Positions 3,016 through 6,181 of a stretch of DNA of 6,181 bases are shown piece after piece. The number at the start of each line of letters is the position of its first letter. Within the stretch, counting starts at the first letter, position 1. The translations under genes were made by a program, and so were the position numbers. The stretch is from Clostridia bacterium. GTDB lineage: Bacteria; Bacillota_A; Clostridia; Christensenellales; Borkfalkiaceae. The notes beneath the pieces were generated by a model. The model was not told the DNA's origin and searched no databases. It saw only the letters and a list, made by a program, of their open reading frames with translations. The DNA lies in the NCBI GenBank assembly GCA_017462505.1, contig JAFTQY010000073.1, positions 1 to 6,181 on the forward strand, read 5' to 3'.

Positions 3016-3732
3016 ATGGAAAACAACCAAACGAACGACAACAAGGAAAAGAAAGAAAAAGCGTTTGACGGCGGCGAAGCGCCCAAGACGGAAAAGAAGA
3101 ACGAAAAGGGTAAGAAAAAGCGCATGAACGGCGAAAAGAAATTTTATTTGTTCACGGCGATCAGCTGCGCGGTGGTGTTGCTTGCCATTATCATTGTGGC
3201 GGTGATAGTGACGAACTCGGGCGCGAGCGAACAGGTGGGCGTACGCCCCGGTATCAGCAGCGAAAGTTCTTCGGACGGCGGGGATAACAGCGGGGACGAG
3301 CCTGTGATCACCTTGCCCGAGGGTATGATCTCGCCCGTGGCGACGGTGACGGTAGGGAATGATTACGGTTTCCACCAGAGCCAAACGCTGGGCTGGTATT
3401 ACGTGCACGAGGGGGTCGATTTCACAGCGGCGGCGGGTACGGAAGTGCTTGCGGCGGACGACGGCGTGGTGGAAAGCGTGTATAAGGACGACCTGCTTTT
3501 GGGCACGGAGATCGTGATTTCGCACGGGGACGGGTTGAAAACGCTGTATCGGTTCGTGACGGAAACGGACGGCTTGACGGTCGGGAAAACGGTGAAGAAG
3601 GGGGACGTGATCGCGACGGTCGCAGAGCCCACGGGCAACGAATATAAGGACGGCGCGCATTTGCATTTTGAGGTTCTTGAAAACGGCAAGAGCGTAGACC
3701 CCACCAAATATTTGACCTTGGAAGAAAAATAA
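3016..3732 (+). CDS. SpoIIQ-like membrane-anchored M23 (LytM) domain protein
   Basis: This 238-residue protein has a Lys/Glu-rich cytoplasmic tail (1-42), one transmembrane helix (about 43-66), a Ser/Gly/Asp-rich linker (70-98) and an M23/LytM domain (about 105-234). Expected zinc ligands are present: H131 and D135 in HEGVD, and H217 in HLHFEV, with H215 also kept. The other catalytic His of active LytM enzymes (in T-x-Y-x-H) is Phe here (TLYRF, F180). The tail-helix-LytM layout with no coiled coil, and the S-x-T-L-x-W...H-x-G-x-D pattern ahead of the first ligand, match clostridial SpoIIQ. That protein sits in the forespore membrane and joins SpoIIIAH to bridge the engulfment gap. Another M23 envelope protein is possible. 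The ATG at 3016 follows GGAGG (3004-3008) by 7 bases; upstream in-frame codons extend into the preceding gene and are not used. A 15-bp-stem terminator follows. Confidence 0.9.
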   Translation: MENNQTNDNKEKKEKAFDGGEAPKTEKKNEKGKKKRMNGEKKFYLFTAISCAVVLLAIIIVAVIVTNSGASEQVGVRPGISSESSSDGGDNSGDEPVITLPEGMISPVATVTVGNDYGFHQSQTLGWYYVHEGVDFTAAAGTEVLAADDGVVESVYKDDLLLGTEIVISHGDGLKTLYRFVTETDGLTVGKTVKKGDVIATVAEPTGNEYKDGAHLHFEVLENGKSVDPTKYLTLEEK

Positions 3733-3764
3733 TTTTTCGGCGCGCGGAATTTTCGGCTTTTTTG

Positions 3765-3802
3765 GCGCGGCGGTCGTGAACGGTCACGATCGCCGCGCTT
3801 TT
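3765..3802 (+). terminator. Long-stem intrinsic terminator after the M23 gene
   Basis: A 15-bp stem pairs 3765-3779 with 3784-3798 (one G-T wobble at 3773/3790) around a four-base ACGG loop, followed by TTTT and then CC and a second T-rich stretch. The stem is long and very GC-rich in its outer half. The opposite strand has an A run after the stem, so it should terminate only + strand transcription. Confidence 0.8.
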
Positions 3803-3894
3803 CCGTTCTTATTGCCTTTTACGCGCTAAAATAGGACATATTCTCTGCGCCTGCCGCATAAGATAACTTGGCAAAAAATAAGCGGAGAAATGCT

Positions 3895-5361
3895 ATGAAA
3901 AGAGGGACGAAAAGAATAGGTGCGGCGTTGCTTGCTCTCGCTTGCGCACTTTTGGGGCTGTTGGGGTTTGTCGGTTGTAAAAAGCCGACGAAAAGCTATA
4001 CGCGCTATGAGATCACGGCGGAATACGCCCCCGAAAACCGCACGCTTGCGGGCACGGCGAAGGTCACGTTTGAAAACGGCGGCGACGGCGCGGTTTCCCT
4101 TTTAAAATTCCGCTTAGCCCCCAACGCGTATCGAAAAGACGCGCTGTATAAGCCCGTTTCCACGGCGTTGCATGCGGCGGCGTATTACGACGGGGAAAGC
4201 TATGGCGAAATGGTGATTTCCAGCGTGCACGGCGCAAAGAGCTGGGAAGTAATGGGCGACGACGAAAATATCCTTTACGTGTACCTGCCCGAAACGCTGT
4301 ATCAAGGGGATCGGGTCGTGCTGGATATCGGTTTTTTGACCAAGCTTGCCGCGGTCAACCACCGTACTGGCGTGAGTAAAAAAACGGTCAATCTCGGCAA
4401 TTTTTATCCCACTCTTTGCGGGGTGAAAAACGGCGGCTTTTACGAAACGGCGTACTATGCCGAGGGCACGCCCTTTTATACCAATACCGCCGATTATTCC
4501 CTGCGCTTGACCCTGCCTAAGGACTACGTGGTGGCGGTGACGGGCGGGAGCGTGGTCGAACGGACGCTGGAAAGCAAAAAGGTATGCGCCGCGTCCTGCG
4601 CGGGCGCACGGGAATTTGCCCTGACCCTTTCGCGGGCATACCGTGTTTTGGAAAAGCAGGTGGGCGATAACGAGCTGGCCTATTATTACTATGCGGACGA
4701 AAAACCGCAGGCGACCTTGGACGCGGCGGCACAGGCGTTTGCGTATTATGAAAATACGTTTGGGACGTACCCGTATCGCGATTATGCCGTTGCGGAAACG
4801 GGCTTGTGTCTGGATTACGCGGCGTATTCGGGCTTGCTGTTTTTGTCCGATAGCCTGACGGGCGCGGCGCGTACGGCGGCGGTGGCGGAGGGTATCGCGC
4901 GACAATGGTGGGGGGAAACCGTGGGCAGCGATAACCTCGAAAACGGCTGGCAAAGCGAGGGCTTGGCGGCGTATTCGGCGGCGTGCTTTTTCGATAGACA
5001 TGCCGATTACGGGGTGCGGCGGGACGATCTAGTGGCGCAATCGCTCAAAGAATACCGTTCCTATTACGACGTATACGGGAGCGTGTTGGGGCGGACGGAT
5101 ACGCGCATGACAAAGCACCTTTCCGAGTTTGTGGGCGGCTACGAATACCGTTGTATTGCCCGCGATAAGGCGGTGGTGATGTTCGATACCTTGCGCAAGA
5201 GCGTGGGGGATAAAAAATTTTTTGCCGCGCTTAGGCGGTATTACGGCGCAAACCGCTTTGCGATGGCGGGCGTGGGGACGCTGGTAGGCGCGTTTGAAAA
5301 ATCGGGCGTGGACGCGCACGGCTTTTTCGACGGCTTTTTGAGCGGTAAAGCGATTTTATAA
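3895..5361 (+). CDS. Lipoprotein with M1 aminopeptidase fold lacking the catalytic residues (pseudopeptidase)
   Basis: This 488-residue protein begins with a lipoprotein signal peptide: basic MKRGTKR, a hydrophobic stretch and lipobox F-V-G-C with C28 as the lipidated residue, so it should be anchored on the outer face of the membrane. Residues about 34-265 resemble the M1 N-terminal beta domain and 275-488 the gluzincin domain (FGTYPYRDY at 289-297, RQWWG at 336-340, LRRYYG late). M1 enzymes cleave N-terminal amino acids with zinc held by HEXXH-x18-E. Here the HEXXH positions read E332-G-I-A-R336. The third ligand E355 is kept at exactly the right distance, but the Tyr of the VPYxKG motif is R423, and the GxMEN region (around 307-311) reads DYAAY. 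It should therefore not be an active peptidase; a binding or scaffold role is possible but unknown. The frame is intact. ATG 3895 follows GGAG (3884-3887) by 7 bases; an upstream TTG at 3868 lacks a ribosome-binding site. Confidence 0.88.
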   Translation: MKRGTKRIGAALLALACALLGLLGFVGCKKPTKSYTRYEITAEYAPENRTLAGTAKVTFENGGDGAVSLLKFRLAPNAYRKDALYKPVSTALHAAAYYDGESYGEMVISSVHGAKSWEVMGDDENILYVYLPETLYQGDRVVLDIGFLTKLAAVNHRTGVSKKTVNLGNFYPTLCGVKNGGFYETAYYAEGTPFYTNTADYSLRLTLPKDYVVAVTGGSVVERTLESKKVCAASCAGAREFALTLSRAYRVLEKQVGDNELAYYYYADEKPQATLDAAAQAFAYYENTFGTYPYRDYAVAETGLCLDYAAYSGLLFLSDSLTGAARTAAVAEGIARQWWGETVGSDNLENGWQSEGLAAYSAACFFDRHADYGVRRDDLVAQSLKEYRSYYDVYGSVLGRTDTRMTKHLSEFVGGYEYRCIARDKAVVMFDTLRKSVGDKKFFAALRRYYGANRFAMAGVGTLVGAFEKSGVDAHGFFDGFLSGKAIL

Positions 5362-5433: not shown

Positions 5434-5631
5434 ATGCCCTTTTTACAGTACAAATGCAAAACCTGCGGCAAGAAATTTGACGAGCTGGTGAAGGTATACA
5501 CGGACAAAGTACCCTGCCCCGACTGCGGCGGAGAAACGGAACGCGATTATTCGGGCGAAATGTATTCCGCGACGGGCAAGGCAAGCAAAAAATGTAGCGG
5601 GAATTGCAAAACGTGCAGCGGCTGCAAATAA
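5434..5631 (+). CDS. FmdB-type small zinc-ribbon protein
   Basis: This 65-residue protein opens with MPFLQYKC, the usual start of the FmdB regulatory/zinc-ribbon family, whose members are small and mostly of unknown function (the name comes from a putative regulator of formamide and acetamide genes). The zinc ribbon is formed by C8-x2-C11 and C28-x2-C31 (CPDCGG). The C-terminus adds four more cysteines, C54-x3-C58-x2-C61-x2-C64, in a Ser/Lys/Gly-rich tail that could hold a second metal. The ATG at 5434 is preferred over an in-frame GTG at 5425 because AGGAAG (5420-5425) lies 8 bases upstream and because MP[IF]xxYxC is the family's N-terminus. It has its own promoter 33 bases upstream and a terminator 18 bases after the stop, so it is probably a single-gene transcript. 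No function should be assigned from the family name. Confidence 0.9.
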   Translation: MPFLQYKCKTCGKKFDELVKVYTDKVPCPDCGGETERDYSGEMYSATGKASKKCSGNCKTCSGCK

Positions 5632-5774: not shown

Positions 5775-5843
5775 GAAAAAAGTAAAAAAAATTGAAAAAG
5801 TTTGAAAAAAACGCTTGACTTTCTTTTTTGTAAATGGTATTAT
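5775..5843 (+). promoter_or_regulatory. Strong rRNA-type promoter with A-tract UP element
   Basis: TTGACT (5815-5820) and TATTAT (5838-5843) are 17 bases apart, and TGG at 5835-5837 makes an extended -10. Upstream lie four A tracts centred near 5778, 5787, 5797 and 5808, spaced about one helical turn, which is the form of an UP element and should curve the DNA. Transcription would start near 5850 and run into the 23S gene. Confidence 0.85.
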
Positions 5844-5849
5844 ATCTAA

Positions 5850-6142
5850 GCTGTCGCTCGTTAAGGGGCGGATTTAACGGCGCGTATCTGTTGATACGGA
5901 CAAAAAGAAGATTAACAACTGCATAGCAAATAGTGATGTTTTTATTATGTGGAAATGTAATAAAGACGAGTACGAAAGGCAAAGAAATTCATATTAGTTA
6001 AAAAGAAAGCTAATTTGGTTAATAAAGCAAAAGACGTTAAAAGCAATTTTAAGGCTCTTGAAAATGCGAAACGAATTAGTCGAGTAGAAATAATAGAATT
6101 TTCTTGTAAAAAGAATGTAAAGACGAGTAGATGAAAGAGAAA
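5850..6142 (+). other. Transcribed leader of the 23S rRNA gene
   Basis: About 290 AT-rich bases with no protein, 16S or tRNA gene. It looks like a 16S-23S spacer placed directly behind a promoter. It contains small hairpins: CGTTAA/TTAACG (5859-5864 with 5874-5879), CGTATC-TGTT-GATACG (5883-5898), and 5993-5999 with 6008-6014. Two boxA-like sequences are GCTCGTTAA (5856-5864, against GCTCTTTAA) and GGCTCTTGAAAA (6053-6064, close to the spacer boxA of Bacillota). AACTGCATAG at 5917-5926 also recalls clostridial spacers. An imperfect repeat is listed separately. Antitermination and RNase III processing are expected from position, not shown. Confidence 0.6.
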
Positions 6143-6145
6143 GAT
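5954..6145 (+). repeat. Imperfect direct repeat in the pre-23S leader
   Basis: AATGTAA-(TA)-AAGACGAGTA with a following GAAAG..AAAGA occurs at 5954-5986 and again at 6114-6145, where it runs into the 23S 5' end. A shorter related copy, AGTCGAGTAGAAA, lies at 6078-6090. The unit is about 30 bases with a few small differences. Confidence 0.55.
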
Positions 6146-6181
6146 CAAGCTACAAAGGGCTTACGGATGATGCCTTGGTAC
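6143..6181 (+). rRNA. 23S ribosomal RNA, 5' end (partial, runs off the window)
   Basis: GATCAAGCTACAAAGGGC followed by ACGG and GATGCCTTGG corresponds to the conserved 5' end of bacterial 23S rRNA (GGTTAAG...AAGGGC...ACGGTGGATGCCTTGG in Bacillus). Only the first 39 or so bases are inside the window. The mature 5' end is placed at 6143 by alignment from memory and may be off by a base or two. Helix 1 pairing predicts CTTGATC at the 3' end of the same gene. Confidence 0.93.

Follow-up and report, generated by a model that had tools for sequence, protein, structure and literature searches.

The window analyzed here (the whole stretch of 6,181 nucleotides) carries a gene for an M1-like lipoprotein in which the metallopeptidase active-site positions are occupied by other residues, and the question that it raises is whether the product is an enzyme in decay or a protein retained for another role. 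An earlier note on this DNA had argued for the latter. Pseudoenzymes are often explained by duplication, with one copy remaining active while the other drifts. At this locus, single-copy orthologs within one bacterial group appear to have switched in place many times, with near relatives carrying intact and dead versions at the same position.

Architecture, fold and catalytic positions

The features identified in the window are listed in Table 1. The reading frame is open throughout, and the good ribosome-binding site and the lipobox described in the earlier note are both present, the latter as a lipobox-like sequence whose -3 residue is an atypical Phe; Leu is usual at this position. All 48 aligned relatives have Cys28, as do all 13 rows of the clade described below. 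The signal peptide and lipobox Cys mark the product as a bacterial lipoprotein, for which lipidation is predicted.

Table 1. Features of the window, in order of position
Feature	Position	Strand	Basis
M23 domain protein with N-terminal hydrophobic stretch, neighbor	3016..3732	+	Pfam PF01551, 81.7 bits; synteny
Terminator-like hairpin 3' of the M23 gene, before the M1-like gene	3764..3799	+	16-pair stem with T-run
Ribosome-binding site GGAG, 7 bases 5' of ATG	3884..3887	+	Read in sequence
M1-fold lipoprotein lacking the catalytic residues, 488 aa	3895..5361	+	ORF open from ATG at 3895 to stop at 5361
Signal peptide, lipobox-like GFVGC; Cys28 presumed lipidated	3895..3978	+	Sequence and Cys28 conservation
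T192 (Asp in 277/280 core-intact relatives)	4468..4470	+	Alignment
C231-A-A-S-C235, clade-specific Cys pair, N-terminal domain	4585..4599	+	Each in 11/13 clade rows
D307-Y-A-A-Y311 instead of GxMEN (intact relatives mostly GGMEY)	4813..4827	+	Alignment
E332-G-I-A-R336 instead of HEXXH	4888..4902	+	Alignment; clade E332 13/13, R/K336 13/13
E355, third zinc ligand position, still acidic	4957..4959	+	Acidic in 58/58 site-lost rows
A359 (Glu in 30/30 intact rows compared)	4969..4971	+	Alignment
Y418, conserved Tyr of YEY	5146..5148	+	Tyr in 121/121 rows
R423 instead of catalytic Tyr	5161..5163	+	Clade: R 9, H 3, Y 1
FmdB-type zinc-ribbon protein, downstream neighbor	5434..5631	+	TIGR02605 over cut-off; synteny

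The protein can be assigned to the M1 family without reliance on the catalytic motif. Its Pfam M1 score of 26.3 bits lies slightly below the cut-off of 27.7, a profile built from 48 relatives, both intact and site lost, matches M1 chains in the PDB (E 9e-10), and the predicted model superposes on M1 structures over approximately 390 residues. Sequence and predicted fold thus agree on an M1 protein with an N-terminal beta domain and a thermolysin-like domain, and the comparison with M1 structures proposed in the earlier note indicates that, in the model, the fold is kept. A predicted M1 fold was likewise found for the EGxAR clade and for a separate clade of 30 site-lost rows. The two-domain M1 aminopeptidase M1dr of Deinococcus radiodurans (PDB 6a8z and 6iff) is close to the M1-like lipoprotein, at 16% identity, but is a zinc metallopeptidase according to its PDB titles, whereas the M1-like lipoprotein lacks the zinc His residues, the general base and the catalytic Tyr. 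Tricorn interacting factor F3 (PDB 1z1w), a 780-residue zinc aminopeptidase, shares 14% identity. TAF2 was absent among the 50 structure matches listed per search, which is no test of kinship with TAF2.

In an alignment of 121 rows, consisting of the M1-like lipoprotein and 120 listed homologs, the register is set by 91 rows in which E310, H332, E333, H336, E355 and Y423 are all present; the M1-like lipoprotein has A, E, G, R, E and R, respectively. The residue numbering and register of the earlier note were borne out by this alignment: EGIAR occupies the HEXXH positions, E355 follows at exactly 18 residues, DYAAY stands in place of GxMEN at 307 to 311, and R423 occupies the catalytic Tyr position, with the neighboring Tyr at 418. 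From the HEXXH-x18-E motif of active M1 enzymes, which includes the general-base Glu, only E355 is therefore retained. Glu310 of GxMEN is found in 274 of 280 core-intact rows and the catalytic Tyr in 237 of the 277 that have a letter at this position. Asp192 and Glu359, both conserved in intact copies, have additionally been lost (the 30 rows compared at position 359 are those of L012 to L042 with an intact HEXXH). In the available part of a study of aminopeptidase B, all 18 zinc-motif mutants were inactive (PMC2241622), and it is therefore very unlikely that the M1-like lipoprotein still cuts peptides; the protein is also predicted to be zinc free.

Orthology and repeated loss of the active site

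The rows nearest to the M1-like lipoprotein (69 to 88% identity) share its altered pattern and form a clade of 13 rows, all of which have E332, G or S at 333, R or K at 336, an acidic residue at 355, A309, and D or E at 307. Support for this clade was 99 in a tree made with the catalytic stretches removed and 100 in a larger FastTree, and no intact-site row fell inside it in the trees made. The EGxAR type is thus a conserved clade, which contradicts the case raised in the earlier note of a recent lone mutant beside intact close homologs. All 13 rows are full length (476 to 524 aa), and the 30-row lost clade is near full length (455 to 491 aa) and, in prediction, M1 folded after loss of the site. 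One member of the dead clade, P0008, is named "M1 family metallopeptidase" in public records, and most of the 120 listed proteins are unnamed.

Thirteen separate losses were counted with FastTree on 341 rows, and the same number was obtained with IQ-TREE on 79 hand-picked rows that included the sisters of lost rows. L076, L085 and L087, which gave wrong, truncated or no readings, were omitted from the trees, and the near-duplicates P0002, P0008, P0009, P0206 and P0149 were omitted from the 341-row tree and from the 58-row counts given below. As the best 120 protein matches were used from each of 533, 460 and 734, this sample may contain more losses than were counted, so that 13 is a lower bound, and the frequencies are not those in nature. 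A 30-genome subset was picked by eye among low scores and was not strictly the lowest. Partial losses beyond the 13 were also seen: Tyr423 is replaced in 40 of 277 zinc-site-intact copies (V in 20, F in 9, others in the remainder), and E310 is missing in 6 of 280 core-intact rows. Outside the genus, L060 and L089 each show a partial loss of the core; one has an intact HEXXH with E355 changed to Ala, and in the other the general base alone of the core has been lost (HATAH).

L001 comes from genome G001, in whose genus the M1-like protein has matches in 50 of 57 genomes, one in each. An fmdB gene lies downstream in 47 of these loci and an M23 gene upstream in 36, as judged from the stretch fetched; it was unseen in the other 14, for some of which the stretch was short, and for L007 and L009 no M23 gene was found over 6 kb upstream. 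Among the 50 copies, 39 retain all six residues, eight (L010, L011, L038, L048, L049, L054, L058 and L059) have lost at least two of H332, E333, H336 and E355, and three (L012, L016 and L055) differ only at 310 or 423. The intact orthologs (L013, L015, L025 and others) share 59 to 62% identity with the M1-like lipoprotein and occupy the same gene slot at 484 to 492 aa but, unlike it, carry HETAH, GMEY, E355 and Y423 together.

In G001 and G002, the two genomes of the clade, the dead copy sits at the position that belongs to the lone M1 gene. The active paralog that the earlier note had suggested looking for was not found in these two genomes using PF01433 and a protein search. The PF01433 search covered nine genomes and then 398 of the family, of which 359 matched; double matches in the rows listed are confined to G039, G286 and G376, and those of G376 are adjacent on one contig. 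Absence of a paralog is weak evidence, as most of these genomes were assembled from metagenomes and their completeness is unstated. Seven genus genomes gave no match: in G013 and G052 other genes come after the M23 gene, in G024 the contig ends there, and G025, G028, G042 and G046 had no M23 match either, with G025 giving a weak PF01433 match (L087). At L094 and L095, from two genus genomes, unrelated genes come after a ywmB-M23 pair and no M1 gene was found, possibly reflecting whole-gene loss.

Selection and the dismantled zinc site

Using the NG86 method, dN/dS was 0.124 to 0.147 for three clade pairs versus 0.067 to 0.139 for eight zinc-site-intact pairs, values that are rough because synonymous distances were around 1 or above (the pairs L086/L088, L067/L068, L064/L067, L061/L072 and L060/L071 were omitted). 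YN00 and maximum-likelihood estimates, which partly differ from those of NG86, were 0.06 to 0.15 in the clade and 0.01 to 0.15 in intact pairs. The clade gave 0.10 to 0.12 for the N-domain versus 0.04 to 0.18 in seven intact pairs, and 0.12 to 0.16 for the catalytic domain versus 0.03 to 0.11, a slight rise. Constraint on the N-domain thus matches that in intact copies, with the catalytic domain slightly less constrained, which fits some relaxation. The ratios show purifying selection, the clade is conserved and holds no intact row, the fold is kept in the model, and the earlier note's view of a selected, nonenzymatic M1 lipoprotein as opposed to a decaying one has stood up. A homologous fold conserved under selection after loss of the catalytic residues makes the protein a pseudoenzyme, with a noncatalytic function predicted. 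It is one of an ordinary kind, since dead metallopeptidases are known; it is unusual that bacterial orthologs with no duplicate seen convert repeatedly along a similar route.

A set of 41 intact rows has 127 conserved columns. The clade retains 96% of those in the N-domain and 78% of those in the catalytic domain; for single intact rows, each left out in turn, the average is 97% of the 127, with 85% the lowest. Among other lost lineages the overall figure ranges from 54 to 95% (95% for P0047 and P0106; 54% for L086/L088, with 50% in the N-domain), so conservation of the N-domain is not a general rule. Compared with its M23 neighbor, the clade M1 gene is less conserved (75 to 81% versus 82 to 90% identity), and intact pairs go both ways.

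Across the 58 rows that have lost the site, position 355 is Glu in 35 and Asp in 23, and R or K is found at 332 or 336 in 43. Counted on the tree, Arg or Lys was the outcome in eight of 11 changes at His332 and, at 16 other His columns taken as controls, in 40 of 209. Fisher's test gave p 3e-4 but was chosen once the pattern had been seen; the excess at 336 was not significant (4 of 10, p 0.12). Some excess of Arg is expected by mutation, as His to Arg is a single base change. An apparent pairing of Lys with Asp355 in 23 rows (Fisher p 0.008) vanished in the 58 rows (9/20 versus 14/38, p 0.58). The three M1 ligands touch one ion, at 2.0 to 2.1 Å in the aminopeptidase B model in the available part of that report (PMC2241622), and the residues that replace them should thus be neighbors. 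As read from the alignment, the zinc ion would be replaced in this clade by a charge pair, with R/K336 placed between E332 and E/D355, and in most other losses, where the arrangement is mirrored, R/K332 may face acid 355 instead of zinc. Such a pair could stand in for the metal by holding the two zinc-ligand helices together. The orthologs provide a natural series for studying metallopeptidase roles beyond catalysis and the dismantling of a zinc site without unfolding.

The possibility that the clade had no new conserved His or Cys was refuted by C231 and C235, which are new in the clade: C231 is found in 12 of 280 core-intact rows and C235 in none of them. Both lie in the N-terminal domain, away from the catalytic motifs, and perhaps form a disulfide gained after loss of the enzyme.

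Candidate roles and gene neighborhood

We favor, with moderate confidence, the reading that this M1 lipoprotein of spore-forming gut Clostridia, present in one copy and tethered to the membrane, has ceased to cut peptides, has a second role at the surface and carries a charge pair where zinc once sat. The two-domain M1 body would be kept for this noncatalytic role, and a partner or ligand would be bound or scaffolded by surfaces away from the former active site, which in this clade are most likely those of the N-terminal beta domain. A surface scaffold or binding role is favored because the body, mostly the N-domain, and the lipid-anchor Cys have been kept. In M1 exopeptidases, E310 holds the peptide N-terminus. 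As E310 and D192 have been lost (D192 having only a presumed part in this), the usual binding of peptide N-termini is disfavored, and the peptide binding offered in the earlier note is weakened, the pocket columns also being no more conserved than random ones.

TAF2, a eukaryotic and nuclear protein, is not known to have the zinc site. Its aminopeptidase homology domain is used in a scaffold as a subunit of TFIID, according to the available text of PMC6220335, much as proposed here for the M1 body of the M1-like lipoprotein; the M1-like orthologs differ in being bacterial and in having lost the site many times. More generally, dead metallopeptidases serve in binding or scaffolding (PMC11266112, a review whose main text, as available, contains neither "M1 family" nor "TAF2"). 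A search of titles and abstract openings, with most subscription journals outside its scope, turned up no study of inactive bacterial M1 lipoproteins.

A broader proposal, which we advance tentatively and hold to be possible but doubtful, is that the main job of this lipoprotein in Clostridia was never proteolysis. Catalysis would then have been optional and lost at least 13 times at a mostly single-copy locus without duplication, with Arg or Lys convergently replacing zinc opposite acid 355, a residue still acidic in every one of the 58 site-lost rows.

It is unlikely that the old pocket has been reused, with R336, R423 and D307 binding an anion, or a peptide by a new mode, or supporting new chemistry. 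The invariance of E332, A309 and Y311 in the clade, the charge kept in 13/13 rows at D/E307, R/K336 and E/D355, and the R or H at 423 in 12/13 would suit such a site. However, the replaced pocket columns as a set are no more conserved than random clade columns (0.652 versus 0.549 bits, with 72% of random sets at or below), other losses carry other residues at these positions, E310 is lost, and D192 is mostly lost.

Slow decay, in which the peptidase became dispensable in gut lineages and the catalytic residues dropped out first, with the rest to follow, we consider improbable. It would account for the 13 or more losses, for G013 and G052, where no M1 gene was found and the M23 gene precedes other genes, for the slightly relaxed catalytic domain, for the lower conservation of M1 than of M23 in the clade, and for the replacement of Tyr423 in 40/277 zinc-site-intact copies, but it fits poorly with 13 full-length clade rows that keep Cys28, a dN/dS of 0.12 to 0.15, a 30-row clade that is near full length and predicted to be M1 folded after site loss, and acid 355 kept in 58/58. 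Least credible, and very improbable, is a rebuilt metal site with kept or new activity, made from E332, E355 and D307 (three acids at the old site by alignment) or from the clade-specific Cys pair of 11/13 rows, since all 13 rows have a cation at 336, the general base E333 is Gly or Ser, and the Cys pair lies in the N-domain, where CxxxC alone offers too few ligands and a disulfide explains it equally well.

Gene content marks the hosts as spore formers, with SpoIVA over its cut-off in 52 of 57 genus genomes, and SpoIIQ is among the best matches of the M23 neighbor (68 bits, far below the cut-off of 250); we make no claim of a sporulation role for the M1-like lipoprotein. A single operon of the M23 and M1-like genes was rejected because of the hairpin between them (-31.9 kcal/mol, z -5.4); terminator-like sites in the window numbered three versus 4.6 expected in shuffles. 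Co-loss in the M23 protein was also rejected, as HxxxD and HxH are present in the relatives' rows listed, with the exceptions of L045 and L059, which end before HxxxD; L054 has HLH. The M23 protein of the window itself keeps HxxxD and HxH but has YRF where many M23 enzymes have YxH; YRF is shared by most relatives whose stretch matched the search pattern. In region 5815 to 6181, a promoter-like site, TTGACT-17-TATTAT, lies upstream of a stretch at the end of the window that we take to resemble the 5' end of 23S rRNA. As no 16S precedes it, an unlinked 23S gene would be a candidate, but neither the window nor five related loci had an rRNA match in Rfam. Positions 2483 to 2926 encode a small, fast-evolving protein that is hydrophobic over an N-terminal stretch and matches DUF1779 below threshold. 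In the 30 of 50 genus loci that yielded both genes, its gene precedes the M23 gene.
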